Positions 1 through 40,981 of a stretch of DNA of 53,824 nt are shown here, one piece after another; the first letter of the stretch is position 1, and each line of letters starts with the position of its first letter. Source of the stretch: an uncultured Lentisphaerota bacterium (GTDB lineage: Bacteria; Verrucomicrobiota; Kiritimatiellia; RFP12; UBA1067). The notes under the pieces are model-generated. The model did no database searches. It was not told the origin of the DNA and saw only the letters and a program-made list of their open reading frames with translations. The stretch is from contig ONRL01000042.1 of NCBI GenBank assembly GCA_900320225.1, positions 1-53,824 of the forward strand, given 5' to 3'. A program made the translations under genes and the position numbers.

Positions 1-992
1 CCGTCAAGGATGCGCACCAGCTCGTCGGCGCTCCACGCGGGATCCACCTTGAGCCGCGCGAGGCGGCGCGGGTCGGAGAGGGCGTCGTTGTAGCCGAAGC
101 CGTTGATGATGAACCCCATTTCGTAGAAGTCCGCCACCGCCTTGAGGTTGGCTTCCCGCAGTGGCTTGTTGTGCGCCTCGAACTGCCCGTAGTTTCCCAT
201 GGGGAAGAAGAATGCCCGCGCCGCGCAGCCGAGCGTGTTCGTGAAAAACGAGACCGCCGCGGCATGGTCGGCGCGGATGCGCCTGTCGAACTCCTCCGGG
301 GTTTCAAATCGCGAGACATCCGACAGCCATGCGGGCGCGGAAAAGAACATCGCCGTTCGCCCGTCCGCGCTCGCAACGACCTCCCCCGTGCCGTGGTCGG
401 ACTCCGCCGCCAGGTCCCACGTGGGGCTTGACTTCATGCGCTCAAGGTACGGCGCGAGGATGACCCCCTCCGCCTCCTTGCGCACGTCGTCCGTCACCAC
501 CCCCATGACGGCATGCCAGCGCCTCTTCTCCAGCAGGCTGCCGGTGGTGAAGTACGAGCTTCGCCGCGAGTTCTCGAACGTGATCAGCAGAGACTTGGCG
601 GGGAGGAGGCGCCTCTCCTTGTAGAACCTCGCCACGTCGTCGAGCGTGATCGGGGTGTACCCCGCCGCCATCAGCGCGTCCAGTTGCAAAGCGAAGTTCT
701 TCGTCGAGATGAAGTCCCCGCCGGGTTCCGGATTTGTCGTGACGCCGTCGTAGGCGATGGCCACGAACGAATCGCTCTCGCGCTTGGCCGTGTCCAGCAC
801 CGCCCGCTGCACGCGCTCGCGCCGCTTCAAGTAGATACCGTTGAACACGCTCCATGTCGCCACCCCCAGGCACACGAGGCCGAACAACACGAGCCAGGCG
901 GTGCGGTTCTGGTCCTTGCGCATCGCCTGCGGGCGCGTCCACCCGCTGCCCGGCACATTGGCGGAGGTTTGTCTGTCCGTATTCTCGATCAT
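1..992 (-). CDS. Polysaccharide deacetylase-like protein, catalytic motifs degenerate (3' end cut by window)
   Basis: The frame opens at ATG 990-992 and runs off the left edge without a stop. An N-terminal membrane anchor (about residues 30-50) is followed by a NodB/PgaB-like fold with the usual order of motifs: a beta strand ending AYDGV, then GYTPITLDDV, LLITFENS, WDLAAESDHG and FFFPMGNYG. In active deacetylases the third motif is TFDDG and the fourth has His-x3-His. Here the metal-binding Asp pair is Glu-Asn and the first His is Glu, so a catalytically dead or altered enzyme is likely. Its ATG overlaps the stop of the upstream glycosyltransferase (ATGA), so the two should be translationally coupled. 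By analogy with PgaB/PgaC pairs it may handle the polymer made by that synthase. The fold is fairly sure; the function is inferred. Confidence 0.72.
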   Translation of the reverse strand, partial: MIENTDRQTSANVPGSGWTRPQAMRKDQNRTAWLVLFGLVCLGVATWSVFNGIYLKRRERVQRAVLDTAKRESDSFVAIAYDGVTTNPEPGGDFISTKNFALQLDALMAAGYTPITLDDVARFYKERRLLPAKSLLITFENSRRSSYFTTGSLLEKRRWHAVMGVVTDDVRKEAEGVILAPYLERMKSSPTWDLAAESDHGTGEVVASADGRTAMFFSAPAWLSDVSRFETPEEFDRRIRADHAAAVSFFTNTLGCAARAFFFPMGNYGQFEAHNKPLREANLKAVADFYEMGFIINGFGYNDALSDPRRLARLKVDPAWSADELVRILD

Positions 993-2167
993 CCTCTCGT
1001 ACCCCATTTCTTGCCGTCCAGCGTCAGGAAGCCCCAGTAGGTCTGCCAGCCGAAAAAGAAGATATATGAAAGCGTGAACAGGATCCCGGCATACCACCAC
1101 CTCCGGCCGCTCGTGATCCAGAAGTGGAGGCTCCACACCAGCGTGATCGTGAACACACCGATCACATACGACGGATGCAACATCCCCTCCTGCAGGGGCG
1201 CGATGACAAGCGCCTGCACCATCACGACGGGCTCGACGATCGGCATCCACATCATGGCGTACCACGAAAGCGCGGGAACGGGGTGCTTGCGCCACATGAA
1301 CTTGCCCGTCTTCCAGATTTCGCGCAGGTAGGACTTCACCCACCGCGACTGCTGGCGCGCGTACTGCTTCCATCCCTCGGGGCAGATCGTCGTCGCGAGC
1401 GCCTGGTCGTCGTAGAGGATCTTGTAGTCCCTCAGGATGAGGTTCGTGAGCGAACGGTCGTCGGCGTAGTTCCCGTGCTTGCCCCACACGGTCGCGTTGA
1501 TCCAGTCGTCCATCACGGCGAGGACGCACGTCCGCCTGTACGCCGAAAAGCATCCGGGCAGGCAGCTCACGGTGCCGAATACGCTTTCGGCCGCCTTCAT
1601 GATCTTGTACGAGAAGTAGTACCGCACGTCCTGCATCCGCGTGAGCATATTGACGTTCGCGTTCTCGATGTCGCAGTGGCCGGAGATGCCGCCCACCGTC
1701 GGGTCCACGAATCCCTGCATCAGCTTGTGGAGCGAACCCGGGAAGACGAAAGTGTCCGAATCCACGCACACCATGAACTCGCCGCGCGCGAGGAACGTCG
1801 CCACCCCCCAGCCGTGGCAGAGGCCGCGGTTCTTCTCGAAATTCACCAGCACGAGCCCCGGATGGTTCGTCTGCGCCTCCTGGATGTGGACGAGCGAATC
1901 GTCCGAGGAGCCGTCGTTGACGCACACGACCTCGAGCTTGTTCAGGGGATAGCCCGAGGAGAAGATGCGCTCCAGGGTCTTGCGGATCGCCAGGCCCTCG
2001 TTGAAACACGGCACCAGCACCGTCAGCGTCGGCTCGAAGTCGGCTTCGGCCGGCGCCTTGTAGAAGGCGGCGAAGATGAAGCGCGTGATCACGAAGACGC
2101 CGGCGATGATGGAGTAGATCGACACGAGAGGCTGGTAGAAGTAGTTCTCGATGCTGTTCAGCTGCAA
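989..2167 (-). CDS. Processive family 2 glycosyltransferase, hyaluronan/chitin synthase-like
   Basis: This 392-residue membrane GT2 has all the hallmarks of processive beta-glycan synthases: VNDGSSDD (83-90, nucleotide-sugar binding), DSD (136-138, metal), GCFSAYRR (205-212, acceptor region), ADDRS (235-239, catalytic base) and QQSRW (272-276). One hydrophobic segment lies at residues 15-35, and several follow the catalytic domain (about 305-380), as in NodC, PgaC and HasA. The product is probably an amino-sugar or hyaluronan-like chain exported through its own membrane domain; the sugar cannot be read from sequence. The start overlaps the upstream zinc-ribbon gene by 10 nt and the stop overlaps the deacetylase-like gene, forming a tight three-gene operon. 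Confidence 0.9.
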   Translation of the reverse strand: MQLNSIENYFYQPLVSIYSIIAGVFVITRFIFAAFYKAPAEADFEPTLTVLVPCFNEGLAIRKTLERIFSSGYPLNKLEVVCVNDGSSDDSLVHIQEAQTNHPGLVLVNFEKNRGLCHGWGVATFLARGEFMVCVDSDTFVFPGSLHKLMQGFVDPTVGGISGHCDIENANVNMLTRMQDVRYYFSYKIMKAAESVFGTVSCLPGCFSAYRRTCVLAVMDDWINATVWGKHGNYADDRSLTNLILRDYKILYDDQALATTICPEGWKQYARQQSRWVKSYLREIWKTGKFMWRKHPVPALSWYAMMWMPIVEPVVMVQALVIAPLQEGMLHPSYVIGVFTITLVWSLHFWITSGRRWWYAGILFTLSYIFFFGWQTYWGFLTLDGKKWGTRG

Positions 2168-2538
2168 GCCAGCAGACCCACCGCGCCGACCGCCACGATG
2201 AAGCCGAATATGAAGTGCGGGGGATGGTAGATCGCCTTCAGACGCGCCTTCACTTCTTCCGGCGAAGGCGGCGCCATCGCCGGGGCGATCGTGCGCTCCA
2301 GCGTACTCTGCACCATCGTCCGGCGGCAGTAGGGACAGATCGTCGGCGGGGCCGTCCCCAGGGTCTGGACGTCAATCAGACAGTGCGGACACCGGCTGGA
2401 GTGCACCTCCACCGAATCGCGGCGGCGGCCATCGGAGCCGACGGGGGGGCTCCCGGAACCGGCGGGGCGAGGATTGGAACGCGTAAAAAAGCTGAGCGTT
2501 CTTCCTCCCCCTGCCGTAGATGTCATGCCAGTTGCCAT
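2158..2538 (-). CDS. Small zinc-ribbon membrane protein
   Basis: A 126-residue protein with a disordered Gly/Ser/Pro/Arg-rich N-terminus, one zinc-ribbon module (CPHC at 50-53 and CPYC at 68-71) and a C-terminal hydrophobic helix (about 108-124). The four Cys should bind one structural zinc ion. It is the first gene of the polysaccharide operon, and its 3' end overlaps the glycosyltransferase start. I do not recognise a characterised family. A role as a membrane-attached adaptor or regulator for the synthase is a guess from position only. The start choice is uncertain because the N-terminal 40 residues are low complexity. Confidence 0.65.
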   Translation of the reverse strand: MATGMTSTAGGGRTLSFFTRSNPRPAGSGSPPVGSDGRRRDSVEVHSSRCPHCLIDVQTLGTAPPTICPYCRRTMVQSTLERTIAPAMAPPSPEEVKARLKAIYHPPHFIFGFIVAVGAVGLLACS

Positions 2539-7645: not shown

Positions 7646-8884
7646 ATGCAAACGGGAGCATCAGAGGAGAAGGCCGTCAGATTGCTTGATCCGGGCGACA
7701 TGTTCGGCGACTACACCGTGGAGAAGCTGCTCGGGCAGGGCGGCATGGGGGCGGTGTACCTCGTGCGCGCGCCCGGTGGCGAGCGGTACGCCGTGAAGGT
7801 GATGTTCCCCGACATGGTGAAGAAGGGCTCGGACTATCGCAAACGCTTTGCGCGGGAGGCGGAGTTCGCGATGCAGATCCACCACAAGAACCTGATCTCC
7901 GTGTACGACGTGGGGGAGGATCCCGAGACGGGGCTGTGCTACATCATCATGGACTACGTGCCGGGCGGGAGCGTGGCGGACCGCCTGGAGAATAACGGGC
8001 CCTTGCCGATGGCGGAGGCGGTGTCGATCGCCGCGCAGGTGGCGCTGGCCCTGGAGGTGGCGCACCGGCACGGGGTGATCCACCGTGACATCAAGCCCGA
8101 GAACATCATGTTCGACGCGGACGGGACGCCGAAGCTGGCGGACCTGGGCGTCGCGAAGTTCACGGACGAGGCGCACAAGACGACGGTGACGACGACGGGC
8201 ATGATCATCGGCACGCCGGCCTACATGGCGCCGGAGCAGATGATGGACTCGCACCACGTCGACGCGCGGGCGGACATCTACGCAGCGCCCGAACGAGGGC
8301 AGCACGGCGGTGGAGCTGCTCGCGAAGGCGATCAAGGGCGAGCCTCTCCCCGATGTGCGGACGATGCGGCCGGAGATCTCGGCGGCGGTCGCGCACGTGC
8401 TTTCGCTCATGTGCGCGCCGAAGCCGGAGGCGCGCCCCGCCACGGCGCTCGAGGCGGCGCAGCTCCAGAAAGCCGCCACGGGGCGGCTGACCCTCCCCAA
8501 GAAGCCGCCGCGTGCGGCCGACGCGGCGGCGCGCAAGAAGAAGCGGGGGATGCCGTGGGCGCTCCTTGCCGTCTGCGCCGTCGTGTGCGCACTTGGCGCG
8601 GCGGTTGTCGCCAGCCTTTTGAACAAGCCGCCCCCTCAAGTCCTGCGGCAGCCGGTCGTGATCACAAACGTGACGGAACAGACTGTCATCCTGACAAATA
8701 CGGTAGACCGTGTCGCGTCCGGGCATTTGCCTGGATCGGATGGACAAAAGTGGCGTCCGGGACCAACTTCGAAATGGTTCGTGGAATGGGACAAGGCGCT
8801 AGCGGAGTCGCGGCGTACCGGGAAGGCGATGTTCCTCCTCAGTACGGGGAGCGACTGGTGCCACTGGTGCACGAAACTGGCTGA
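7646..8884 (+). CDS. Ser/Thr protein kinase 1, kinase-domain part (frame broken near 8282)
   Basis: This is the cytosolic part of a Hanks-type kinase: Gly-rich loop LGQGGMGAVY, AVKVM (catalytic Lys), HRDIKPEN, LADLGVAK (DLG in place of DFG) and GTPAYMAPEQ. Homology stops at RADIY (codon ending 8281). The equivalent segment of kinase 2 (12394-13530) has 13 more residues, SLGVILFELLCGR, before Arg-Pro. Here only 4 nt separate Tyr from the Arg-Pro codons, so 35 nt are missing and the frame shifts. The C-lobe continues in the frame of the next entry, while this frame runs on as nonsense to 8884. The intact gene would span 7646-12224. The start is set by the leaderless -10 spacing. Confidence 0.85.
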   Translation: MQTGASEEKAVRLLDPGDMFGDYTVEKLLGQGGMGAVYLVRAPGGERYAVKVMFPDMVKKGSDYRKRFAREAEFAMQIHHKNLISVYDVGEDPETGLCYIIMDYVPGGSVADRLENNGPLPMAEAVSIAAQVALALEVAHRHGVIHRDIKPENIMFDADGTPKLADLGVAKFTDEAHKTTVTTTGMIIGTPAYMAPEQMMDSHHVDARADIYAAPERGQHGGGAAREGDQGRASPRCADDAAGDLGGGRARAFAHVRAEAGGAPRHGARGGAAPESRHGAADPPQEAAACGRRGGAQEEAGDAVGAPCRLRRRVRTWRGGCRQPFEQAAPSSPAAAGRDHKRDGTDCHPDKYGRPCRVRAFAWIGWTKVASGTNFEMVRGMGQGASGVAAYREGDVPPQYGERLVPLVHETG

Positions 8885-11800
8885 CGAGGTGTTGGATACG
8901 CCTGAGTTCTCCCAGTTCGCCGACCAGAACCTCGTTCTTCTTTATCTCGACAGCCCCAGCCGCAATCCGCTCTGCAGGGAACAGAGGTTGCACAACAAGT
9001 TGGTCGTCAAGACGCTGCCTTTTGGAGGTGGCGTGCCATTTGCGCTGATTGTCAACGCCAAGGGCGAGAAGCTTGGCGAAATCCGCGGTGGAGGACAGAA
9101 GGTCGGCGATTACCTCGAAAGGCTGCGCGGCATCTGCAGTGCCAGGGGTGAGACGATCCCTGGCGGCGATGCCCAGGCGCTTTTCGCCGACGGCTATGCG
9201 AAGCTTGCAGACGCGATTGCTGCTCGGCGCGCGGCGCTACCTCCCGTTTCGACCAACGACTTCAAGGCCGCTTTGACAGGCGTGGCGGTGGTGGATGGGG
9301 CGAAGGTGCACGGTAGCAAGGAAGACATTAAATTTCTTTCTCCGGAAACGGAACTGGAAGTTCCTTACGGGAAATCGGCCCTGTTTCGCGTGGAATACGA
9401 TTTCCCGAAGGGATATGGCGCGCGCATCTGGACTCGCGACGAGTGGCCGGCGGCTGAAAGGCGCAACTCGTATTACTTCGGTTCAAACCCGTCAGGCATG
9501 TACAGTGGAAAGGGCACGGCATACGGATTCCTCAGCATGTTGGCTCGGGGCTCTGAGTGTACGCTCAAGTCATTGGCGATCAGGACAAACTCCGATCCGG
9601 AACTTGATGAGCGCCCGCAGGGCTGGACGATCGGCACGACGGCGGTCAATCTGAACTTCAAGGCGAAGGATTCTTCTCCGGTTGTCCCGTATGTGTCAAA
9701 AACAAGGCTCCATGCGCTCTATCGCTCAAAGGACAGGAAGCATGTGTTCGTGGAGGTGTGTCACATGAACGAATCCGTAACCTATGTAACGCCACGTTGC
9801 ACGGTGGACAGACTTCGTGAGGTCATAGACGGTAAGATCGACATTCTTTTTGTTTCTCTGGCTTGCTCCAAGGATGGGGTTCTTTTTGCCGCCAATGACC
9901 CTGGAGACAAGGCTGATCTTGCGAAAGTGTCGAATGGTTCAGGGCGATTCGGCGAACATTCGGCAGCTGCGCTGAAAAAACTGAGGGTTAGACAGGCGGG
10001 ACGGTTGACGGCAAAGAGCCTCGCGACATTCGAGGAACTCCTTCAGATCGGGAAAGGCCATATCCTTTTCAAGATCGACCATCGATTGGAATACGCAACG
10101 GAACTCGAGGCATTGCTGGAGAAACTTGACGCATGGGAGTCGGTAATCTTGCAGATCAGCAACGGGAAGAATCTTTCTCAAAAGTATGGCGCTAGAATGT
10201 TGGAGAAGATGAAGTCTGGCCAATTGATTGTATCTTGCGTCAAAGGATCTTTCCCGCCAGTACAGCAAATCATTCCAGAGGCCACGGCCGATGCCTCGTA
10301 TAGGGACAGAATGCGTGAACAGAACCTCAAGGGCATTCGGCAACGCATATTTGCCTCGATGGTGCTCGCCGAACGCACGGATGACGAGGCGGGATGGGAG
10401 GATGCCCTGAACGATGGCGTGACGGTTCTTCGGACGGGTAGGCCGCGAGCACTCCTGCAATATATCGAAAGGGATAAACGGCGCACGTCGTCATTTGCGC
10501 AAAGCCGCAAAGAAATTTCCGGTCGATCGTCGCGACAGAATGTTTCGTCGACGGTCTTGTTCCCCATCCTGGATCGCTCCCCTGTGGCTTGGGCATATTC
10601 TTTTGAGGAAGAAGAAGGGTGGACTGGCGGGCAGTTTAACGATTCAAGATGGAAGCGTGCCCCCGGTGGGTTTGGGTACAGGGAAGATCTCAAGCAACTC
10701 CCCCGCGCGCGATTGAACACAGACTGGCAGTCAGATCGGCTATTTCTCCGGAAACGTTTCGATTGGGCAGGTGGTAACGTCTCACGCGTGGTCGTGGACG
10801 CCTACCATGACGATGACGTGACGTTCTATCTGAACGGGCAGTTGATGTTGAATGTGAACGGGGCTAATTTTGATTGGCAGCCGTTCGAGATACCTGCGGA
10901 ACGTTTCCTGAACGCTGTGAAATCTGGCGAGAACGTGTTCTGCGCCGAGGTCAGGGATCTTGGTCATTGCCGGTATTTCGACTGTGGACTAGTTGTCGAA
11001 TGCGGCGGGAAGGTGGATACGCATGTCGGCTCAGACTCATTGCGCAGGGTCAAGACGGCTGTCGGCACGTGGACGGTTGTGGTCGAGAATGGTGTCGCAC
11101 AACTCGGCGACGGAAGAAACGTCGCGCTGGAGCCGCGTCCCAAAGGGTACTTGAAGATTCCTGCCGAACTTGACGGAATCGTCATCAGCAGGCTTGCGCA
11201 CGATAGTTTTCTCCGCTGCGAGGAGTTGGAAGGAGTGGAAATCGCCGAAGGCATGCGTTCAATAGGAGAGGGGGCATTCTGTGGTTGCTCCCAATTGGCA
11301 AGGATTGAACTTCCCTCGACACTTGAACATATAGGGCCGAGGGCCATGCAAGATACAAGACTGGAGAAGATAGACCTCAAAAATGTTCGTCTTATGGAGG
11401 AAGAGGTTTTTAGATACTGTGACAGGCTTGAAAACATAAAGGCCAGTTCGTGCAATGTCAAGTTCCGTGTAAAGGACGGAGTCCTGTACGATGTTGTTCG
11501 ACGAGCCGTTGTGTTCTGTCCGACTTCGCGCAAGGTCTATGCTTTTCCGTCGGGGATAGAAGAGATCTGCAATAGCGCCTTTCGGCGCACGAAGCTGAAG
11601 AAGGTCGTCATCCCGGAAACTGTTGAGTTTGTCGGTTGGGATGCCTTCAGAGAATGCCCATTCCTTGAAAACGTGACGTTTAAAGGCGATGATGCCATTA
11701 TTAGGGGAGGAGCGTTTTCGGACAATCCTTTGCTCAAGACCGTCGTCCTCCCGAAACGACTGAAGGCACTGGACGATTGGGCGATCTTCAATCATGCGGG

Positions 11801-12224
11801 GCAGCTTGAGTCGGTTGTCTTGCCCGACACCGTGGAGATCATTGATGACGCGGTGTTTGAGAACTGTCCGAAACTCAAGCGCGTTATTTTGGGGAAGTCC
11901 CTTCGGACCGTTCGGCATCATGCTTTCTCGGGATGTCCCAATCTACTTTCGGTCGCATTCCCCCCGACGCTTCGGGAAATGGGCGCCGAGGTGTTCCTTG
12001 ATTGTTCTGGCCTGAAAAAGGTCTCTTTTGCCGGCAACGCGCCAGACCTCAAGGATCAGGGATCGGATCGTTTCGGCAAGGATCTCTACAAGGGGGCGAA
12101 CCCGTCGCTTGTTACGTTTGCGTCCAAAGATTCGACGGGCTGGATGGACGGTTCGGACAAGTTGCCGAAAGTGTGGCCGGTCGACGGCGGCGAATCGGCG
12201 CGCCCCATTCGCCATGTCAAGTAA
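8310..12224 (+). CDS. Kinase 1 continuation: C-lobe, TM helix and mosaic ectodomain (Trx, GDPD-like, jelly roll, LRR_5)
   Basis: The open frame really continues the kinase from about 8283; GTG 8310 is only the first start codon in it. In order it holds the kinase C-lobe (EPLPDVRT), a TM helix (about 8550-8620), a thioredoxin-like domain with CHWC (8859-8870), a beta-sandwich of unknown family (about 9260-9720), a GDPD-like domain (about 9735-10480), a galactose-binding-like jelly roll (about 10560-11010; DSRWKRAPGGFG, VTFYLNG) and a BspA-type LRR_5 array (about 11060-12150; repeats such as AFRECPFLENVTF). The GDPD-like part keeps KDG, NGSG and ATFEELL but has lost most catalytic positions (HRG to HMN, ENT to RCT, ExD to VSL, HD to ND). 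This suggests a surface sensor that signals to the cytosolic kinase. Confidence 0.85.
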   Translation: MELLAKAIKGEPLPDVRTMRPEISAAVAHVLSLMCAPKPEARPATALEAAQLQKAATGRLTLPKKPPRAADAAARKKKRGMPWALLAVCAVVCALGAAVVASLLNKPPPQVLRQPVVITNVTEQTVILTNTVDRVASGHLPGSDGQKWRPGPTSKWFVEWDKALAESRRTGKAMFLLSTGSDWCHWCTKLADEVLDTPEFSQFADQNLVLLYLDSPSRNPLCREQRLHNKLVVKTLPFGGGVPFALIVNAKGEKLGEIRGGGQKVGDYLERLRGICSARGETIPGGDAQALFADGYAKLADAIAARRAALPPVSTNDFKAALTGVAVVDGAKVHGSKEDIKFLSPETELEVPYGKSALFRVEYDFPKGYGARIWTRDEWPAAERRNSYYFGSNPSGMYSGKGTAYGFLSMLARGSECTLKSLAIRTNSDPELDERPQGWTIGTTAVNLNFKAKDSSPVVPYVSKTRLHALYRSKDRKHVFVEVCHMNESVTYVTPRCTVDRLREVIDGKIDILFVSLACSKDGVLFAANDPGDKADLAKVSNGSGRFGEHSAAALKKLRVRQAGRLTAKSLATFEELLQIGKGHILFKIDHRLEYATELEALLEKLDAWESVILQISNGKNLSQKYGARMLEKMKSGQLIVSCVKGSFPPVQQIIPEATADASYRDRMREQNLKGIRQRIFASMVLAERTDDEAGWEDALNDGVTVLRTGRPRALLQYIERDKRRTSSFAQSRKEISGRSSRQNVSSTVLFPILDRSPVAWAYSFEEEEGWTGGQFNDSRWKRAPGGFGYREDLKQLPRARLNTDWQSDRLFLRKRFDWAGGNVSRVVVDAYHDDDVTFYLNGQLMLNVNGANFDWQPFEIPAERFLNAVKSGENVFCAEVRDLGHCRYFDCGLVVECGGKVDTHVGSDSLRRVKTAVGTWTVVVENGVAQLGDGRNVALEPRPKGYLKIPAELDGIVISRLAHDSFLRCEELEGVEIAEGMRSIGEGAFCGCSQLARIELPSTLEHIGPRAMQDTRLEKIDLKNVRLMEEEVFRYCDRLENIKASSCNVKFRVKDGVLYDVVRRAVVFCPTSRKVYAFPSGIEEICNSAFRRTKLKKVVIPETVEFVGWDAFRECPFLENVTFKGDDAIIRGGAFSDNPLLKTVVLPKRLKALDDWAIFNHAGQLESVVLPDTVEIIDDAVFENCPKLKRVILGKSLRTVRHHAFSGCPNLLSVAFPPTLREMGAEVFLDCSGLKKVSFAGNAPDLKDQGSDRFGKDLYKGANPSLVTFASKDSTGWMDGSDKLPKVWPVDGGESARPIRHVK

Positions 12225-16924: not shown

Positions 16925-19900
16925 ATGGCGCATGTGCTGTCAGATGCTCTTGCGGTTGCCGCGAGCCTTTCGGTTGTGGCGCTGGCGATATGCTGTGCGG
17001 TGTGTTTGGTGTCGATCCTTTACCGTTGTGCTGCGGCCAGCGCGCTGCGGAAGTTGCCGCCTTCGGCTGCTTGGGCGTTACTCGCGTTCGCTCTGGGTCT
17101 GATGCCGACGGTCGCGAAGCGTGCTGGGACAACGGGCGTCCCGCCCGTTGTCCCAGCGCGGGGAGGATTGCGCTCAGGTTCGTCCGACTCCGACTTTTGG
17201 CTCTCCTACATCGGTCCATCCACCAACTCGGTCGAACTGGGGGTCGCATGGTTGCCAGGCGTGTTCGCGGCTCCGCCGTTTATCGAGTTCACAGTCAGCA
17301 CGAACCTCTCCATCGGCGCCTGGACATTGCTGGGGTGGGCTGAAGCCGAGGCTGGCGAGACGAACCTTTCCGTTGAGGTGGATGTTGCTCAGTTGCCTGG
17401 AGGTATGGTGCCGCCCACAGCCTTCTTCAAGGCGACGGCATACGACGGCTTGGGGGCTGACGACGAGGACGATGACGGCGACGGCATTCCAAATGGCTGG
17501 GAGCGGTCGCACGGTACGAATCCCCGGAGGGTCGATACGGATAGTGACGGCATTCCAGACGGGGTTGAGGCGGCGTGGGCGTCGGTCGACGAGCCGTTTC
17601 CAGAACTCGACCTTTCATCGCTTACGAACGTCCTCGCGGGTACGTTACCTTACTCCGTATTCCCGGCGACCATTTCCGTGTCGCTTCCATTTGCGGTGGA
17701 GATGGCCGGGGGCATATCCACTAATGCAGTTGTCCATGTTAACGGCATGGTGGCGTTTCCCGAGGTCGGCAGTTCTACAAACATGCTTGGTTTTTCTCAA
17801 TACGCGCAACCAGAGAGCCTGTATGCGACAGATCACGGCATCGTGGCGGCGTACGGTTTTTCCTTCCTCATGATGGGCTACACAGGCTCCCAGATTCGCG
17901 CCGGCGTTGTACAGGATACGCATGGAAGATGGTTCGTGGCCGAGTGGCGCGACATGGCCGATCCAATGGGATTCGCGAATCTTACATTAGGATCGGCGAC
18001 GTTTCGATTGGCCGTATCGGAGACAGACCCTAGCACGTTCCGAGTGCAGTATGTCGATGTCGAGGGCATCATCGACCCAACACAGGCCCTGTTCGGTGCG
18101 CACGGCTTTGGCGGGACGCCAAGTTTCTCCCTGTCGGATGGCGTCACGAACGGTATGACGGTTGCCTATCATTTCGGCGTTGGGACTGATCCCACGAATG
18201 CCGACACGGACGGGGACTGTCTGCCCGATGGATGGGAGGCCGCGTACGGCATGAATCCGCTCGTCGCCAACACGGGCGATCCGCGCATGGATGCGAACGC
18301 CGACCCCGACCTTGACGGCCTCACGAACCTGGAAGAGGCTGCACAGGGAACAGACCCATTTCAGCCGGACACGGACGGCGACGGGATGGACGACGGATGG
18401 GAGACACGGTACGGATTCGATCCGTGTACGCATAACAGCCAGACGGAGCGCACGGACGACGATGCGAATGCTGATCCTGACGGCGACGGCCTCACGAACG
18501 CCGAGGAATGTGCGTGGGGGACAAATCCAGGTAGCCCAGATTCAGACGGCGACGGCGTGACAGACAACGCCGAGATCGCGCAGAACAGCGACCCCGCCGA
18601 ACCGACAGACGAGGGGAAGCCGAATAGCCGCGTTGCGATGAGTTTTGTTTTTGGCGACCACAGCTCCAGCCATTCGGAAAAGTACCGGTTGACTGTCTCG
18701 CCCGTGCCGACCGTTGGCGAAACCAATCCCCCGCGCACGTTCTCGTGGGTGAACGCGGAATACGGCGCATGCGAGACGCGCACGGCCATGCTGACGCCCG
18801 GACGCTCCTACGAGGTGCGTCTCGTGCATGCTTCCACGAACCGCTCCCAGGGGCCGGACTACGACTACACGCTTAATGCCGTTTCCATTCCGCAGTCGGT
18901 TATACTATCCGATCCCGATGGCCTCTTCGGCGTGCATCTTTCAAGCAGCACGTTCACCGGTGCGGGGCTTGTGGCGACGGTAGCGGCGTGCAAACTTGAC
19001 GTTGCGATATGTGCTCCTGATGACGAGTCATGGGCGGAGTTGGATGCTTCGCGTGTTGTGCTAGATAATGAGTCTCTTCGTGTCCAAGTGACAGTTGCGC
19101 CGCAGATGGGCAGTCTCTCGGCAGTCCAGCAGAAGTGGGGCAACTCCCTTGTGATCAAGACCTCCGGTACATGTCCCCAGGGTGGACTTGTTTCGTTGGA
19201 CGATGCCGTGTTTCTCAATTGTGGCGATAGGTCTGAAATCCGTGTCATGCTTTCCTTCCTTCGATTGAGGCAACTGGGGATTCTGCCATCTCAAGATGAG
19301 GACGGTGTGGATGAGATGGCTTGGTATGACATAGGCGACGACGATCCAGCGTCATTGTCGAATCTCTCAGACAGCAATGCCTTTGCGCAGCTCGGCTATG
19401 CTTTCCGAGGAAAGATTCTCCAGCCGTCTTTGGGGAACCTGGATTCATATCCTCCCGTTTCGAGTAATTCTGAGTCATTCTACCAATCAGGAGGAGTGGA
19501 GATTGTTACTGCTCATTATGGCGGGACAAACAGCTTGAAACGGCAAATTATGAACCAGGCCGATTATTTCTACTATTCTGGGCATGGACGACATTCTGAT
19601 GGGTGTTTGAAGGGACTTACCGGTGGGCCAGGGTTGACACCGGCTCTAGTTGCTCCATATTGGAATAGAGACTTGAAGTGTGTTGTTTTTGCAGGATGTT
19701 CTGTTTTAGATATAAACGATTATAATGGGAAATACGTGGGAACACCAGAACATGGCAGCTCTCCTGGCAAGTTATGGGCTGCAGTTGAGGGGCCGGAGTC
19801 TTTTCTTGGTTATGCCTATAAAGCGCCGCGAGATACTCAAGGTGCAGGCAGGATTGCCAGTGATTGGGTTACGTTGCGGGGGAACATTAATGACGTAGAC

Positions 19901-20035
19901 GCTTGGATGACGGCAAATGATAATAGTAATGGGCGTAATGCTTGTGCGATAGATAATTCACGGAACTTCCACTATTTCAAGAAAGTCCTCTGGAAGACTT
20001 ACAAGAGAACATTCGTACCGAAAGCGAGTCAGTAA
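16925..20035 (+). CDS. TSP3-repeat surface protein with C-terminal caspase-fold-like protease domain
   Basis: This 1036-residue protein has two hydrophobic N-terminal helices (about 5-35 and 47-65), then calcium-binding thrombospondin type 3 motifs such as DTDSDGIPDG, DTDGDCLPDGWE, DTDGDGMDDGWE and DSDGDGVTD, separated by beta domains. The C-terminal domain has FYYSGHG (His 887) and VVFAGCS (Cys 925), each after a hydrophobic strand. This is the His-Cys dyad layout of clan CD peptidases (caspase, CHAT, gingipain). A perfect 16-bp-arm palindrome encodes AGTTGVPPVVPA near residue 70. From about 19050 the gene is clearly more A+T-rich than its first half, as is the next gene, suggesting the C-terminal part arrived separately. 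Protease activity is inferred. Confidence 0.78.
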   Translation: MAHVLSDALAVAASLSVVALAICCAVCLVSILYRCAAASALRKLPPSAAWALLAFALGLMPTVAKRAGTTGVPPVVPARGGLRSGSSDSDFWLSYIGPSTNSVELGVAWLPGVFAAPPFIEFTVSTNLSIGAWTLLGWAEAEAGETNLSVEVDVAQLPGGMVPPTAFFKATAYDGLGADDEDDDGDGIPNGWERSHGTNPRRVDTDSDGIPDGVEAAWASVDEPFPELDLSSLTNVLAGTLPYSVFPATISVSLPFAVEMAGGISTNAVVHVNGMVAFPEVGSSTNMLGFSQYAQPESLYATDHGIVAAYGFSFLMMGYTGSQIRAGVVQDTHGRWFVAEWRDMADPMGFANLTLGSATFRLAVSETDPSTFRVQYVDVEGIIDPTQALFGAHGFGGTPSFSLSDGVTNGMTVAYHFGVGTDPTNADTDGDCLPDGWEAAYGMNPLVANTGDPRMDANADPDLDGLTNLEEAAQGTDPFQPDTDGDGMDDGWETRYGFDPCTHNSQTERTDDDANADPDGDGLTNAEECAWGTNPGSPDSDGDGVTDNAEIAQNSDPAEPTDEGKPNSRVAMSFVFGDHSSSHSEKYRLTVSPVPTVGETNPPRTFSWVNAEYGACETRTAMLTPGRSYEVRLVHASTNRSQGPDYDYTLNAVSIPQSVILSDPDGLFGVHLSSSTFTGAGLVATVAACKLDVAICAPDDESWAELDASRVVLDNESLRVQVTVAPQMGSLSAVQQKWGNSLVIKTSGTCPQGGLVSLDDAVFLNCGDRSEIRVMLSFLRLRQLGILPSQDEDGVDEMAWYDIGDDDPASLSNLSDSNAFAQLGYAFRGKILQPSLGNLDSYPPVSSNSESFYQSGGVEIVTAHYGGTNSLKRQIMNQADYFYYSGHGRHSDGCLKGLTGGPGLTPALVAPYWNRDLKCVVFAGCSVLDINDYNGKYVGTPEHGSSPGKLWAAVEGPESFLGYAYKAPRDTQGAGRIASDWVTLRGNINDVDAWMTANDNSNGRNACAIDNSRNFHYFKKVLWKTYKRTFVPKASQ
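17123..17157. repeat. Perfect 16-bp-arm hairpin (TTG-ILPV family) inside the TSP3 gene
   Basis: Arms 17123-17138 and 17142-17157 are perfectly complementary with a 3-nt TCC loop. It is read in frame as TTGVPPVVP between the membrane segment and the first beta domain. Confidence 0.85.
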
Positions 20036-20036
20036 T

Positions 20037-20660
20037 ATGAACAAGATTACTTTAATTGTCATAGCAATTGGCTGGGGTGTTTGTGCACAATGTGATTACA
20101 GCATTGCTTTGACAAACATGATAGATGGCCTACAACGTCCGCATGGTACGCTTGATGCCGCCTTTACCAACCAGCTTGTGGTTTATGCTGAGGAACTGAC
20201 AAATGTTTCCCAGTCCGCCAACGTCAATCTAGTCCGCGCTATTTCTTTGGCTGACATCGCAGAAGAAGATGTAAACGGTGATGAAATGCTTCCTCCCGCT
20301 ATTGCCATTTGTTCAAATATCCTGAATTCCACTGAACTTCCTTCAGCAGCTTGGCAAAAAGGCGTTGCGGGTATTGTCATGACAGGTATCAATACCTTTG
20401 AAGGAAAGCGCTCAAACGCTTGCAGCAGCGCGACTAATGTCACAGTGTTGTCTTCACACAACATTTCCCTTGAGGAGGATCTTAGGCTTTGGAACTCAAT
20501 TGCAAGCCATCTGGATGTCGAGGGATTGTCCGTGCAGGATGCCGTGCGCTGTTATGCAGCAATTGCGTTACTTAACGACAATCCGTCTTGTGGGGTTTCA
20601 TCGTACACGAACGGGCTGCCAGAATCTATCCTCATTAAAATCAGAGAATTTTGCGAATGA
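20037..20660 (+). CDS. Small secreted protein following the caspase-like gene
   Basis: A 207-residue protein with a signal peptide (MNKITLIVIAIGWGVCA) and a mostly helical, Cys-containing mature part. I do not recognise the family. It begins 1 nt after the upstream stop, shares that gene's lower G+C and its codon use, and is therefore likely co-transferred and co-expressed. It may be a partner, inhibitor or substrate of the caspase-like domain. That is inference from position only. Confidence 0.68.
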   Translation: MNKITLIVIAIGWGVCAQCDYSIALTNMIDGLQRPHGTLDAAFTNQLVVYAEELTNVSQSANVNLVRAISLADIAEEDVNGDEMLPPAIAICSNILNSTELPSAAWQKGVAGIVMTGINTFEGKRSNACSSATNVTVLSSHNISLEEDLRLWNSIASHLDVEGLSVQDAVRCYAAIALLNDNPSCGVSSYTNGLPESILIKIREFCE

Positions 20661-20685
20661 ACGAGGAGTCGAAACAGGGGGGCGC

Positions 20686-23600
20686 ATGACGCATCGCACA
20701 AACGTCGTGGCGGAGTATGTCGCCGAGGTCGCGAGGCTGGCGAAGACCGGCAAGGCGACGGAACATTCTTTCCGGGGCGCGCTCGCCGCGCTCTTCGACG
20801 CGCTCGCGCCGGGCCTCAAGGCTGTGAACGAGCCGAAGCGCACGGACTGCGGCGCGCCCGACTACATCGTACAGGACAGGACGGGGCTCGCGGTCTTCTA
20901 CGTGGAGGCGAAGGAACTCGGCGACGGCGACCTCGACGGAAAGAAGCGCACAGGCCACAAGGAGCAGTTCGACCGCTACAAGGCCGCGCTCGACACGATC
21001 ATCTTCACCGACTACCTCGACTTCCGCCTGTATCGGCACGACCAATTCGTATCCGCAGTCAGGATCGCCGACTTGGGAGGGCCGCCGTCCTCGGCGGCCG
21101 CGGCTCGCGTGGACGCTCGCCCTCCCGTGCGGATCGTCCCTCTGCCCGAAAACTACGACGGCCTCGCCCAGCTCGTCGCCGATGCCGCCGCCGGAGAGCC
21201 GCAGCGGATCGACGGCGCGAAGCGTCTTGCCGAGCTGATGGCCGGCAAGGCGCGCATGCTCCAATCCTCTGCCTTGAAGTTCCTGAAGCCACTTGCTGAG
21301 GCGTGGGACGGCGCGAAGAACGGCGAACGGCCGCAGCGAACGCCGCTTCTCGACATGATGCTCGACATGCGGAAGATGCTGATGCCGGAAGTGGGCGCGG
21401 AGGTGTTCAGCGACATCTTCGCACAGACCCTCACCTATGGCATGTTCGCCGCCCGCCTCAACGACCCCACGCCGGAGGACTTCTCCCGCGCCGAGGCGAT
21501 GATGCTCATCCCGAAGTCCAACCCGTTCCTGAAAAAGCTCTTCGGGTTCATCGCCGCCGACCTTGAGGACGAATTGACGTGGATCGTTGACGACCTTGCC
21601 GACCTCTTCCGCGCGGCGAACGTGGCGGACATCATGCGCGACTACGGAAAAGCGCAGGGCGGCGCCGATCCGATGCTGCATTTCTACGAGGACTTCCTCG
21701 CCGCCTACGACGGCGACCTGCGCAAGAAACGCGGCGTGTGGTACACGCCAATTCAGGTGGTGCGTTTCATCGTCGCGGCAGCTGATTGGGCGCTCCGCAC
21801 GCGCTTTGGCCTCCCCGACGGCCTCGCCGACTCGTCCAAGACGGAGATCGAGGTCGAAGAGACGGCTTTTCACGGCAAAAAGCTCGCGCAGAAAGTGAAG
21901 AAGACCGTCCACCGCGTCCAGCTGCTCGACCCTGCGACGGGGACGGGAACGTTCATCGCTGAGGCGGTGCGGCAGGTGCACGCCAAGTTCGCCGGCAACG
22001 AAGGCATGTGGCCGGGCTACGCGGAAAAGGATCTCCGTCCGCGCCTCAACGGCTTCGAGCTCCTGATGGCGAGCTACACCATGGCGCACATAAAACTAGA
22101 CATGGCGCTAAGGGAGACGACAACTGGGACAACGGGCATCTTGCCCGTTGCTGCCTCCTCCCGCTTCCGCATTTTCCTCACCGACTCCCTCTCCGACTGG
22201 CACAAGGAACTGCCGGGCGGACTGTTCGCAAGTGTCCTCGGCGCGGAACAGGAAGGCGCAGACGAGGTGAAACGCGCCATCCCCGTGATGGTAGTCGTGG
22301 GTAATCCGCCGTATTCGGGCGAGAGCCAGAACAAGGGTGAGTGGATCATGCGGCTCATGGAGGCATACAAGGTCGAGCCAGGCGGAAAGGAACGGCTGAA
22401 GGAACGCAATCCGAAGTGGCTCAACGACGACTACGTGAAGTTCATCCGCCTCGCTGAACACTACGTCGAAAAGAACGGCGAGGGTGTGGTCGCCTACATC
22501 ACGCCGCACGGGTTCCTCGACAACCCCACGTTCCGTGGCATGCGCTGGCACCTCATGCAGACTTTCGACGAAATCTGGACGCTGAACCTCCACGGCAACT
22601 CGAAGAAGAAGGAAGTCGCGCCCGACGGCAGCAAGGACGAGTGCGTGTTCGACATCATGCAGGGCGTGGCGATCACGCTGTTTGTGAAGTGTTGCCAATG
22701 TGCAAATGTTGCCAATGCCAATTCCAATTCCCAATTGGGAGCTGGCAACACTCGCACATTGGCAACATTAAACCACACCTGCAAGGTGTGGTATGCCGAC
22801 CTTTGGGGCAAGAAGAAGGACAAGCTCACTGCGCTCGACAACGCGACAATGGACTCGATCGAATGGCGGGAACTCCAGCCGACGGAGCCAATGCTATTCT
22901 TCACGCCCAAGGATACCGCTGGCGAAGCCGAATGGAACGACGCCTTCGGAATCGCCGAGCTGATGAAGGTGAACTCTTCAGGTGTTGTGTCGGCAAACGA
23001 CGAGTTGAACTTCTCGTTTACAGAAGAAGAGCAAAGAGAGAAGATTCGTGATTTGCTCTCATTAACAGAACATGAGTGGCGACAAAAATACCATCGGCTT
23101 AAAGATTCAAGTGAATGGACATATGTGGATGCTAAAGCCGATGCAGTGAATAGAGGCAGATATTGTACGGCAGCATATCGCCTTTTTGATGATCGGTTTA
23201 CATTTTACACTGGAACGGCCAAAGGGCTTTACACAAGACCGCGTGATAATGTGATGCGGCACTTTGCAGGAGTTGAGAACATTGGGCTTGTGGCTAAACG
23301 CGGATTTCCATATCCGACTGAACGGCCTGTTGCCTTTCTCGCCACGAGCCTTATAGATAATCGTTTTTGGTCTTGTTCTGGGATGCAGGGCATTGATTAC
23401 TTCTTCCCCCTCTACCTCTACGAGGAGAACATGGGGAAGATGGAACGGCGGGCGAATCTCGACAAGGACATCGTGGCGAAGATTGCGGCGGCGGTCGCAA
23501 CGGGCGAGACGCCCGTTGTCCCAGTGAACGGGCAAGATGCCCGTTCTCCCAGTGGTGCGGACGCGCAGGAGCGCGTCCCTCCCATCGACATTTTCGACTA

Positions 23601-24063
23601 TATCTACGGCGTGCTGCATTCGCCCGCCTACCGCGCGAAGTTCAAGGAGTTCCTGAAGAGCGACTTCCCGCGCATCCCGTACCCGAAGGACGCGGCGGAG
23701 TTCGCACGCTTCCGCGACGCGGGGCGTGCGCTCCGCGAGACGCATCTCCTACGCGACGCCGCGCCGCCCTTGTCCGAGCCGACCGCGCGCTTCCCCGTTC
23801 CCGGCGACAACGTGGTGGATGCGGTGAGGTGGGACAACGGCCGTGTCTACATCAACCCCACGCAATATTTCGACAACGTGCTACTTACCGCATGGGAGCA
23901 GGCGATCGGCGGCTACCATCCGGCGGAGAAGTGGCTGAAGGACCGCAAGGGTCGTGTCCTTACTCCCGATGACCTGCGCCACTACCAGCGGATCATCCTC
24001 GCCCTTGCCAAGACCTCAGAGTTGATGGAAGGGCTGAATGCCATCGGGGCCATGGATCCCTGA
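20686..24063 (+). CDS. Single-chain restriction-modification enzyme (type IIG/ISP-like), helicase absent
   Basis: A 1125-residue fusion. The N-terminal PD-(D/E)XK nuclease has D59 and E74-x-K76 (VEAK). A helical linker with WYTPIQVVRFIV leads to an N6-adenine methyltransferase with motif I LLDPATGTGTF (D415) and motif IV NPPY (540-543), then a C-terminal target-recognition region. Type ISP enzymes such as LlaGI have a helicase between nuclease and methyltransferase. None is present here, so a type IIG-like cutter is more likely. ATG 20686 follows a purine-rich stretch. Seven hairpin elements are inserted in frame (21080-21099, 22130-22150, 22691-22766, 22773-22791, 23498-23518, 23527-23545, 23559-23578) without breaking the frame. 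The recognition region (about 22980-23400) is A+T-richer than the rest. Confidence 0.88.
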   Translation: MTHRTNVVAEYVAEVARLAKTGKATEHSFRGALAALFDALAPGLKAVNEPKRTDCGAPDYIVQDRTGLAVFYVEAKELGDGDLDGKKRTGHKEQFDRYKAALDTIIFTDYLDFRLYRHDQFVSAVRIADLGGPPSSAAAARVDARPPVRIVPLPENYDGLAQLVADAAAGEPQRIDGAKRLAELMAGKARMLQSSALKFLKPLAEAWDGAKNGERPQRTPLLDMMLDMRKMLMPEVGAEVFSDIFAQTLTYGMFAARLNDPTPEDFSRAEAMMLIPKSNPFLKKLFGFIAADLEDELTWIVDDLADLFRAANVADIMRDYGKAQGGADPMLHFYEDFLAAYDGDLRKKRGVWYTPIQVVRFIVAAADWALRTRFGLPDGLADSSKTEIEVEETAFHGKKLAQKVKKTVHRVQLLDPATGTGTFIAEAVRQVHAKFAGNEGMWPGYAEKDLRPRLNGFELLMASYTMAHIKLDMALRETTTGTTGILPVAASSRFRIFLTDSLSDWHKELPGGLFASVLGAEQEGADEVKRAIPVMVVVGNPPYSGESQNKGEWIMRLMEAYKVEPGGKERLKERNPKWLNDDYVKFIRLAEHYVEKNGEGVVAYITPHGFLDNPTFRGMRWHLMQTFDEIWTLNLHGNSKKKEVAPDGSKDECVFDIMQGVAITLFVKCCQCANVANANSNSQLGAGNTRTLATLNHTCKVWYADLWGKKKDKLTALDNATMDSIEWRELQPTEPMLFFTPKDTAGEAEWNDAFGIAELMKVNSSGVVSANDELNFSFTEEEQREKIRDLLSLTEHEWRQKYHRLKDSSEWTYVDAKADAVNRGRYCTAAYRLFDDRFTFYTGTAKGLYTRPRDNVMRHFAGVENIGLVAKRGFPYPTERPVAFLATSLIDNRFWSCSGMQGIDYFFPLYLYEENMGKMERRANLDKDIVAKIAAAVATGETPVVPVNGQDARSPSGADAQERVPPIDIFDYIYGVLHSPAYRAKFKEFLKSDFPRIPYPKDAAEFARFRDAGRALRETHLLRDAAPPLSEPTARFPVPGDNVVDAVRWDNGRVYINPTQYFDNVLLTAWEQAIGGYHPAEKWLKDRKGRVLTPDDLRHYQRIILALAKTSELMEGLNAIGAMDP
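21075..21126. repeat. TCCT-loop hairpin element in the R-M gene (GGGAGG family)
   Basis: Inner perfect 8-bp arms (21080-21087, 21092-21099) surround TCCT. GGGAGG (21075-21080) and CCTCCC (21121-21126) can close an outer stem that also encloses a small GCGT/ACGC hairpin. It is read in frame as GGPPSSAAAARVDARPP. Confidence 0.7.
22130..22150. repeat. TTG-ILPV hairpin in the R-M gene
   Basis: Nine-bp perfect arms CAACGGGCA/TGCCCGTTG with TCT loop, read in frame as TTGILPV between the methyltransferase motifs. Confidence 0.8.
22691..22766. repeat. 24-bp-arm inverted repeat inserted in the R-M gene
   Basis: Arms 22691-22714 and 22743-22766 match at 22 of 24 positions. Each arm contains GTTGCCA twice. 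The 28-nt centre holds the palindrome CCCAATTGGG. It adds about 25 residues (ANVANANSNSQLG and flanks) after ITLFVK, where related enzymes go directly to their next strand. Confidence 0.75.
22773..22791. repeat. Hairpin CCACACCT-GCA-AGGTGTGG in the R-M gene
   Basis: A perfect 8-bp stem with a 3-nt loop, 6 nt after the 24-bp-arm repeat; read in frame. Confidence 0.7.
23498..23578. repeat. Three tandem hairpin elements in the R-M gene
   Basis: CAACGGGCG/CGCCCGTTG with AGA loop (23498-23518), AACGGGCA/TGCCCGTT with AGA loop (23527-23545) and GGACGCGC/GCGCGTCC with AGGA loop (23559-23578). All stems are perfect and the loops are the complements of TCT and TCCT, so these copies lie in reverse orientation. 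They add a disordered-looking segment before FDYIYGVLH. Confidence 0.8.
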
Positions 24064-39081: not shown

Positions 39082-39120
39082 GTCATGGCAGGACGGACAA
39101 CGGAGAGAAAGGAACCAAAG

Positions 39121-40977
39121 ATGCTGAAAGACACCCTGAAGAGGAACGAGACGGCCGCCGCGAATGCAGACGCGCTGGCGGTTCTGCGCGAGAACTTCGC
39201 GGGCTGCTTCACGAAGGAGGGCGCGTTCGACCTCAAGGCTTTTGCGGCGCGAATCCGTGACAAGGTGGCCGTGACAGAAGAAGGCTATCAGCTCGACTTC
39301 CTTGGCAAAAACTATGCGCGGCTTCTCGCGAACGAGGAGACTGAAACGGTGATCGTGCCGGACGAGGCGCACAATGCGAAGCCGGAGAACGCGAAGAGCC
39401 AGAACGTCTATATCTCCGGCGACAACCTTGACGCCCTGAAGCATCTCCTCAAATCCTACGAGCATGAGGTCAAGTGCATCTACATCGATCCGCCGTACAA
39501 CACGGGATCGGACGGCTTCGTTTACAATGACAACTTCAAGTTCAAACCTGATGAACTCGCACGGAAACTTTCCATCACAGAAGAGGAGGCGAAGAAGCTT
39601 CTTGATTTCGTCGGGCGCGGTTCTGCCTCTCATTCCGCCTGGCTCATGTTCATGTACCCACGCCTCCAGCTCGCTAAATCTCTCCTTCGCGACGATGGCG
39701 TCATCTTCATCTCCATCGACGACAACGAACAGGCTAATTTGAAGCTGCTGTGCGATGATGTGTCTGGGGAACAGAACTTTTTGGCGAACATAATCTGGAA
39801 GCGTAAACGCGGCCGCGATAATTCTGCGCGATGGTTCAGTAAGGCGCATGAGTATGCACTTGTGTATGCGAGGCGCATTGATTCTTTTGATACGCACTTT
39901 CTTGAACTTGACGAGGAGACCAAGAAGGCGTATAAGAACGCCGATAAAGATCCAAGAGGCCCGCATAGAGATTTGGCTTGTTGGGCAAGAGGAACGCAAG
40001 GTGGTGTGCGGTATGAGTTTATAACGAAGAATGGTGTGAGGTTCGCCGAGCGTCTATGGTTGTTCTCCAAGGCCAACATGGAGAAGATGGATCATGAAGA
40101 TCGACTTGTGTTTCATGGGGACAACATTTATCGGAAGTTGTTTCTTGGAGAAAATGCGGGAAAAATCCCTGAAACATTGTGGGATTCCGTTTCAAATGCG
40201 GCTAACGCCGCTGATGAGATCAAGGACTTGTTCGGTGCGATAGTTTTCGACACACCTAAGCCTGTGCCGTATGTGACGGAGATGCTTAAAATTGCCACTG
40301 ATGCGAACTCACTTGTTTTGGATTTCTTTTCTGGGTCGGGGACGACAGCGGAAGCGATCATGCGTATGAACGCGAAGTCTCTTGGGAAAGAATCTCGTCG
40401 TTATATTCTCGTCCAATGGCAGGAGTGTTGTAATGTCGATTCGGTCGCATTCAAGGAGGGATACAAAACGATTGATGAAATAGGGCAAGTGCGCATTAAG
40501 AAGGCAGCAAACAAAATTCATGAAGAGAACTCTTTGTTTGCGGGCGACCTCGGCTTCAAGCACTTCACGCTCGCGAAGCCGAGCGGTGAAATGCTCGAGA
40601 AAATCGAGTCGTTCGATCCGAAGGCGAGCATGCTGGCGACGCAGGACATGCTGAAGGAATTCGGCGTGGGGACGGTGCTGGCGACCTGGCTGAACCACGA
40701 CGGCTACGGGCTTACGCGGGAGGCGGAGAAGGTCGATCTCGCCGGGTATGAGGCGTACCTGTGCGGGCACCACCTCTACCTCGTCAACGCCAACTTCGGC
40801 GCGAAGAACGTCAAGGCGCTTCTGGAGAAGTACGAGACGGACAAGGCGTTCACGCCTGACAAGATCGTCCTCTTCGGCTACAGCTTCGGCTGGAAGGAGC
40901 TGGAGGAGCTCGACACGAACCTCAAGAAGCTCAAGACGACGCGCAACATCACCGCCGACCTCGACATCCGGTACTGA
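39121..40977 (+). CDS. Type III restriction-modification methyltransferase (Mod)
   Basis: A 618-residue N6-adenine methyltransferase of the beta class: motif IV DPPYNTGSD (123-126) precedes the SAM-binding FFSGSGTTAEA (402-409). The middle (about 39760-40510), where the target-recognition domain lies, is noticeably A+T-richer, as expected for a region exchanged between systems. It specifies and protects the recognition site and is needed by Res for cleavage. ATG 39121 follows AAAGGA by 7 nt. Res starts 5 nt after the stop. Confidence 0.95.
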   Translation: MLKDTLKRNETAAANADALAVLRENFAGCFTKEGAFDLKAFAARIRDKVAVTEEGYQLDFLGKNYARLLANEETETVIVPDEAHNAKPENAKSQNVYISGDNLDALKHLLKSYEHEVKCIYIDPPYNTGSDGFVYNDNFKFKPDELARKLSITEEEAKKLLDFVGRGSASHSAWLMFMYPRLQLAKSLLRDDGVIFISIDDNEQANLKLLCDDVSGEQNFLANIIWKRKRGRDNSARWFSKAHEYALVYARRIDSFDTHFLELDEETKKAYKNADKDPRGPHRDLACWARGTQGGVRYEFITKNGVRFAERLWLFSKANMEKMDHEDRLVFHGDNIYRKLFLGENAGKIPETLWDSVSNAANAADEIKDLFGAIVFDTPKPVPYVTEMLKIATDANSLVLDFFSGSGTTAEAIMRMNAKSLGKESRRYILVQWQECCNVDSVAFKEGYKTIDEIGQVRIKKAANKIHEENSLFAGDLGFKHFTLAKPSGEMLEKIESFDPKASMLATQDMLKEFGVGTVLATWLNHDGYGLTREAEKVDLAGYEAYLCGHHLYLVNANFGAKNVKALLEKYETDKAFTPDKIVLFGYSFGWKELEELDTNLKKLKTTRNITADLDIRY

Positions 40978-40981
40978 AGCC

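Follow-up and report, generated by a model that had tools for sequence, protein, structure and literature searches.

In Escherichia coli the export of poly-N-acetylglucosamine (PNAG) needs the deacetylase PgaB, and the synthases NodC and PgaC, like the hyaluronan synthases, use UDP-GlcNAc. In the passages available from the literature, deacetylation of PNAG before export has been postulated, periplasmic scaffold roles are described for such proteins and PgaB contacts the tetratricopeptide repeats (TPRs) of the porin PgaA (PMC5933820), while in the Pel system deacetylation is tied to export (PMC12022489). A survey of pga operons describes pgaB clades that are fused to a glycosyltransferase or divergent; the passages available from it name no clade of dead pgaB, and the word stem verrucomicrob is absent (PMC7112194). 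Here we analyse the window, by which we mean the whole stretch of 53,824 nucleotides of contig ONRL01000042.1 (assembly GCA_900320225.1) from an uncultured Lentisphaerota bacterium of the rumen, of the class Kiritimatiellae. At its 5' end lies the gene of a PgaB-like protein, called A below, that has lost the metal site of the deacetylase both here and in its relatives in the class. We consider it probable that this gene and the synthase gene before it are the opening pair of an operon, present across Kiritimatiellae, for PGA-like, synthase-dependent secretion of an exopolysaccharide, and that A serves in it as a non-catalytic scaffold.

The 5' gene of the contig is on the minus strand, a PgaB-like open reading frame (ORF) at 3-992, and it is preceded on the same strand by a family-2 glycosyltransferase (GT2) at 989-2167; an ATGA overlap joins the stop of the GT2 and the start of the PgaB-like ORF. 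The features are these:

3..992, minus strand: protein A, PgaB-like and membrane-anchored, N-terminal 330 residues, the 3' end being lost at the contig edge
about residues 75-330 of A: degenerate carbohydrate esterase family 4 (CE4) domain, from family-model and PDB sequence matches
747..749, minus strand: codon of D82, which replaces PgaB H55 in the alignment
567..581, minus strand: TFENS, residues 138-142, which replaces TFDDG (D115 to N)
387..404, minus strand: ESDHGT, residues 197-202, which replaces HTWNSH (H184 to E, H189 to T)
183..212, minus strand: FFFPMGNYGQ, residues 261-270, an MT3-like motif that is retained
989..2167, minus strand: processive GT2, NodC/PgaC/hyaluronan-synthase-like, from family models and, on relatives, motifs and PDB matches
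2158..2538, minus strand: zinc ribbon (CPHC...CPYC) and membrane helix, the N-terminal part of the synthase, split by a frameshift

The initial annotation had read the locus as a processive GT2 paired with a PgaB-like protein, and this reading is borne out by the GT2 motifs of the relatives and by the matches of A to the PgaB family model TIGR03938 (E = 2.2e-21) and to PgaB in the PDB (3vus, E = 2e-8). The match of A to the Pfam model Polysacc_deac_1 is weak (E = 0.084, below the cut-off), and the curated score of TIGR03938, 321.9 bits, is reached neither by the truncated protein of the window (75.8) nor by two full orthologues (75.5 and 104). The annotation had also noted that TFDDG has become TFENS and that the His motif has become ESDHG (residues 197-201). 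When A is aligned to E. coli PgaB, H55 is replaced by D, D114 by E, D115 by N, H184 by E, and H189 by T; the metal ligands of PgaB, D115, H184, and H189, are thus N, E, and T, and the metal site is lost as had been noted. The motif name MT3 is that of a study in whose available passages it reads AYPYG in NodB2 proteins (PMC10967932).

Alignment of homologues had been named as the way to find out if the substitutions are conserved, and they are. The residues H55, D115, H184, and H189 are absent in 51 of 51 orthologues of A from genomes of the window's class, as read from their motif table, and likewise in 67 of 67 sequences made up of 66 loci from named contigs and the window. The two sets overlap, many of their genomes being the same. 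The named loci, numbered here with the prefix L, came from a scan with a single peptide pattern, the MT3 motif; of 95 places the best 80 were kept and 66 loci proved usable, a large number of them from metagenome-assembled genomes of rumen or sediment. Their titles vary (Kiritimatiellae, Lentisphaerae, Verrucomicrobia, PVC, 'bacterium', and a few others), class membership being established for the set of 51. The 67-row alignment leaves out L100, L161, and L165, the last being out of frame. D115 is replaced by Q in 31 sequences, H in 19, N in 16, and L in 1, and H184 solely by Q (35) or E (32). The combinations at 114-115/184 are DH/Q in 18, EN/E in 15, EQ/E in 12, EQ/Q in 9, and DQ/Q in 8, with five singletons. 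Homologues with an intact site in the same operon, by which the window's copy could have been taken as simply mutated, were not found for A within the class. A mutation confined to one copy of A is therefore rejected; the loss is real and is conserved across the relatives in these alignments, so that damage to this one copy does not account for it. The conserved loss suggests that A has been turned into a polymer-handling part instead of a remover of acetyl groups.

The rest of A was read from its orthologues, whose ORFs are usually 1,270-1,640 aa long (these are longest-ORF starts, some of them overlong, and ORFs cut by contig ends or split are shorter). Residues 61-765 of the orthologue from L096, which is 87% identical to the window protein, were modelled with a mean predicted local distance difference test (pLDDT) score of 86.5. 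In the predicted fold 247 residues of the CE4 part match PgaB 3vus (Z 29.4, 2.4 A) and 155 residues of a CBM66-like domain match 4azz (Z 20.0, 2.3 A), and a TIM-like part aligns with the C-terminal domain of PgaB; against whole PgaB (4f9d) 420 residues over model positions 10-651 align at 16.6 A, the domains being shifted. Sequence profiles of A and PgaB align in the CE4 part alone. TPRs come after the TIM-like part. The GH153 catalytic Asp of PgaB is D474, according to the available passages of PMC5933820; in the TIM-like domain of A, with the register DG-xxx-[HD] set by eye, the column that probably corresponds to this Asp has an acid in 0 of 58 sequences and the column one residue earlier in 34 of 58. 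Near the N-terminus, a hydrophobic helix lies at about residues 32-53 with no canonical lipobox by eye, and Cys 41 is present in 9 of 10 order-level sequences; the N-terminus of E. coli PgaB reads ...MLTAC.

The initial annotation had a separate zinc-ribbon membrane protein leading the operon. This was rejected: in most orthologues the zinc ribbon and the GT2 are fused in one protein of about 480-540 aa (513 aa in L023, 523 aa in L030), and where ribbon and GT2 meet, the window is shorter by 13 bases than four close relatives. Since the joint is 13 bases short and the orthologues are fused, 2158-2538 and 989-2167 belong, on this comparison, to a single synthase gene whose frame is broken, be it in the organism or through faulty assembly. 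The TTG at 2167 is where the broken GT2 frame first offers a start codon and is unlikely to be the true start. The four ribbon cysteines are present in 63 of 65 aligned synthases and the GT2 motifs D, DxD, DD, and QQxRW in all 65. The GT2 scores higher with the family model of NodC (143.7 bits) than with the PgaC equivalog (120 bits, the PgaC cut-off being 422.3), and its nearest relatives, from family models and the PDB matches of its own relatives, are NodC, PgaC, and the hyaluronan synthases; a GlcNAc-containing polymer is therefore likely.

The operon order in many relatives is GT2, A, a membrane-bound O-acyltransferase (MBOAT), a small protein, a PatB-like SGNH protein, and a porin-like protein, called B below. 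Of 69 A genes, 61 have the GT2 immediately before them and 3 immediately after (L152 has both); 6 have it in neither place, and of these L101 and L160 start at a contig edge and in L105 and L129 an overlong ORF runs over a GT2. In loci L095-L129, 25 A genes have 1.5 kb or more of sequence left, and 21 of them are followed by MBOAT; where 6.5 kb or more is left, 15 of 20 loci include B. In L130-L162, by the same limits, MBOAT follows A in 0 of 32 and 9 of 19 loci include B. The SGNH protein belongs to DUF459 (1.7e-47), with Ser, Asp, and His in all 26 sequences and Asn in 25 of them, and the two His of MBOAT are present in 25 of 25. Genes for KaiC-like and ExeA-like ATPases, and sometimes a GHL10-like protein, often stand divergently upstream of the GT2 in relatives, an arrangement that resembles PEP-CTERM exopolysaccharide loci.

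B has TPRs and a 16-strand barrel with a PgaB-type CE4 domain between them. In L026 the CE4 domain of B matches by sequence. In the part of B that was modelled (mean pLDDT 74.8) the predicted CE4 fold matches PgaB 4f9d (Z 25.6, 2.8 A, 250 residues) and the predicted barrel matches best PgaA 4y25 (Z 24.4, 2.5 A, 266 of 290 residues), followed by BcsC and PelB. The B CE4 set holds 44 distinct regions from 70 sequences, 41 from the class and 3 from L167, L170, and L172. D114-D115-H184 is kept in 26 of the 41 class sequences and lost in 15, and the full H-D-D-H-H set is present in 10 of the 41, or 12 of the 44. The B tree has at least 6 changes between intact and dead, and nine dead rows form one clade that includes five close relatives of the window, L023, L024, L055, L056, and L099 (two of the window's genus, two of another genus in the family, and one named locus), in all five of which the CE4 of B is degraded. 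Thus the CE4 of B in the window's lineage is probably not deacetylating, a state taken from these relatives since the B fragment of the window's genome starts past the motifs. Three adjacent B-type genes stand in one locus (L070 and L069), with some CE4 sites intact and some degraded.

The proposal that deacetylation is unlikely therefore stands in part. The site of A is lost and that of B is degraded in 5 of 5 close relatives, but the relatives have a second CE4 domain in the porin, so that the loss in A alone does not imply that there is no deacetylation. The window's genome has 3 other CE4 places, and since TFDD was read in 2 of them, deacetylation by an unlinked enzyme is possible.

More distant loci bear on the history of the loss. 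In L163, L166, L168, L169, and L171 the gene directly after the GT2 encodes a PgaB-like protein (512-858 aa) that keeps H55, D114, D115, and H184, and in 4 of the 5 also H189; the record titles of L166, L169, and L173 are without a phylum. L164, titled Verrucomicrobia, has a dead A that falls within the class sequences in the tree, with S at both 115 and 184. In L167, L170, and L172 the gene matched in the scan is B-like. The gene order in L167 (titled Elusimicrobia) and L170 (titled Omnitrophota) is GT2, A-like, B-like; these A-like proteins align with A over the CE4 and lectin-like parts (hhalign, 5.7e-13 and 3.5e-14), have by eye VFDP and LFHP at the TFDD position of PgaB and no His motif, and stand next to B-like proteins with D114, D115, and H184 intact. 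In the A tree dead and intact are separated by one change, with an SH-like approximate likelihood ratio (SH-aLRT) value of 80 on that branch, but this was a quick search with the motif columns excluded and a long-branch warning, and three of its intact rows (L167, L170, and L172) are B-like. A single loss at the base of the class is not proposed, the A-like genes of L167 and L170 being dead too. With dead A-like and intact B-like proteins side by side in these two loci, a dead A seems to go together with a B outside the class too.

Taken together, we propose the following for the scaffold reading. The GT2 would synthesise and extrude a HexNAc-type polymer, and A, anchored in the inner membrane, would take it up in the periplasm, the metal-free CE4 fold acting as a binding or guiding surface, as the initial annotation had surmised, followed by the CBM66-like lectin domain, the TIM-like domain, and the TPRs. 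In part of the class MBOAT and the PatB-like SGNH protein would O-acylate the polymer, and B, with its TPRs, CE4, and barrel, would carry it through the outer membrane; where intact, the CE4 of B may deacetylate in some lineages, and probably not in the window's. Such a place for A between synthase and porin fits the scaffold roles described in the available passages on the PNAG and Pel systems (PMC5933820, PMC12022489). A wider proposal, which we hold tentatively and as something short of an even chance, is that this is a distinct secretion system in which two PgaB-like modules split the labour, the dead inner-membrane A as a long trans-periplasmic scaffold and the deacetylase fused into the porin as a PgaA-PgaB fusion. 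It would be spread over Kiritimatiellae and found also on Elusimicrobia and Omnitrophota contigs, and in the window's lineage the second module would be dead as well, with export without deacetylation and O-acylation in its place.

Several observations weigh against the scaffold reading. The window's own A stops at residue 330, its synthase frame is broken, and its genome has just a fragment of B, residues 725-1245 (contig C243, 2-1561), past the motifs. The MBOAT of the operon was not found in the window's assembly, which has just homologues of 38-42% identity, so the presence of the missing genes in this genome is something that we infer from relatives. Since MBOAT follows A in one part of the loci and never in the other, O-acylation is, on the gene orders read, outside the common core of the system. 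The distribution is scattered: at E<=1e-45 about 60 of the 288 genomes of the class match A (a row count), and 12 of 15 same-genus genomes are without a match, some of them perhaps because their assemblies are fragmentary. At E<=1e-3, where B and other deacetylases are included, 12 of 40 and 97 of 288 genomes matched, the 97 including the window's own. In a wider scan 95 of 387 genomes matched at E<=1e-10, and among the matches listed all above 250 bits were within the class and those outside it were below 100 bits. The A proteins of L055 and L056 (genus g6) are 86-89% identical to that of the window (genus g1), as close as A from its own genus, and this, with the same-genus genomes that are without A, makes horizontal transfer of A possible.

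The acid at the catalytic-base position and the Q or E at 184 would fit a reworked active site as well, and the main rival is that the site of A has been rebuilt into a metal-free catalytic site ([ED]114-[NQH]115 with [QE]184) for another reaction on the polymer. The acid at 114 in 65 of 67, Q or E alone at 184, and the few residue combinations speak for this, as does the description of a NodB-fold enzyme that is not metal-dependent, 3CL6, in the available passages of PMC10967932. We consider it unlikely, since the substitutes at H55 are of eight kinds and the one at H189 is Phe in most sequences (44 of 67), as in a site freed from chemistry, L164 has S at 115 and 184 inside the dead clade, and the A-like proteins of L167 and L170 have by eye none of the pattern. 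A new metal site made of nearby acids or His, for example D199 and H200 in the window, is suggested by the ESDHG of the window and its close relatives and by H at 115 in 19 of 67, but no such ligand is conserved across the family and this explanation seems very improbable. It would be quite unlikely, too, that the polymer of the window's lineage is without N-acetyl groups and that both CE4 domains are left-over lectins; both domains are indeed degenerate in the close relatives, but the GT2 is nearest to synthases that use UDP-GlcNAc, and a DUF459/PatB enzyme accepts beta-1,4-GlcNAc oligomers according to the available passages of PMC9487903. Finally, A might be a decaying relic that persists by linkage alone while B deacetylates, as B could do where its CE4 keeps D114-D115-H184, in the class and in L167 and L170. 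This is very unlikely, for A is a long protein that many families have retained, its ratio of nonsynonymous to synonymous rates (dN/dS) is below 1 (0.37-0.55 among six close relatives and 0.21 for one near-identical pair), it has 15 invariant columns across 59 rows, and it is still present where B is dead. A non-catalytic scaffold is thus the reading that we prefer.

Elsewhere in the window, on the plus strand, a Ser/Thr kinase gene at 7646-8884 seems to go on in another frame near 8300, its Pkinase match stopping at profile position 182 of 263, and this is a second broken frame in the window; the ORF at 8310-12224 that follows has thioredoxin-like and BspA leucine-rich-repeat parts. At 16925-20035 is a protein with TSP3 calcium repeats, in which an SGHG stretch resembles by eye caspase-type peptidases, and at 20398-24063 a Type ISP restriction-modification protein (Type_ISP_C, 1.7e-68). 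At 39085-44407 an ORF that is by eye DNA-methylase-like adjoins a type III restriction subunit (ResIII, RE_endonuc); the C-terminus of the latter has a further match, to Peptidase_S24, above the cut-off.

The combination of a dead PgaB with a lectin insert, a porin-deacetylase fusion, and PatA/B-like acylation was not found in the open-licence literature; the part families are known and, within the literature searched, their combination is apparently new. A series in which the first CE4 is dead and the second intact, partly degraded, or dead could separate PgaB chemistry from polymer carrying, and the polymer is a candidate for the matrix polysaccharide of a class that lives in rumen, gut, and sediment and of which few members are in culture. 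A Pontiella sulfated-exopolymer cluster was considered as the same system and is not supported, a figure legend in the available part of that paper showing other genes (PMC7356697). Nearest in kind to A as an inert protein are the NodB proteins Ba0150 (4M1B) and EcCDA (2VYO), whose NodB fold is described as catalytically inert or probably inactive; 4M1B is grouped with MurNAc deacetylases and not with the PNAG type, and the available passages give no conserved operon role (PMC10967932). The O-acetylation pairs PatA/PatB of peptidoglycan and AlgI/J/X of alginate resemble the relatives' MBOAT and periplasmic SGNH protein (DUF459), whose residues are intact, but in the relatives the pair sits in an operon with GT2, PgaB-like protein, and porin, beside A in one part of the loci. 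B is like the E. coli PNAG porin PgaA in its TPRs and 16-strand barrel and differs in the PgaB-type CE4 fused between them. Finally, A is like E. coli PgaB, the PNAG N-deacetylase and GH153 hydrolase, in its circularly permuted CE4 fold, in lying beside a GT2 gene, and in a predicted TIM-like domain where PgaB has its C-terminal domain, but differs in the lost metal site, the CBM66-like insert, a membrane helix without a canonical lipobox by eye, and the lack of an acid (0 of 58) in the column matched by eye to the GH153 catalytic Asp.

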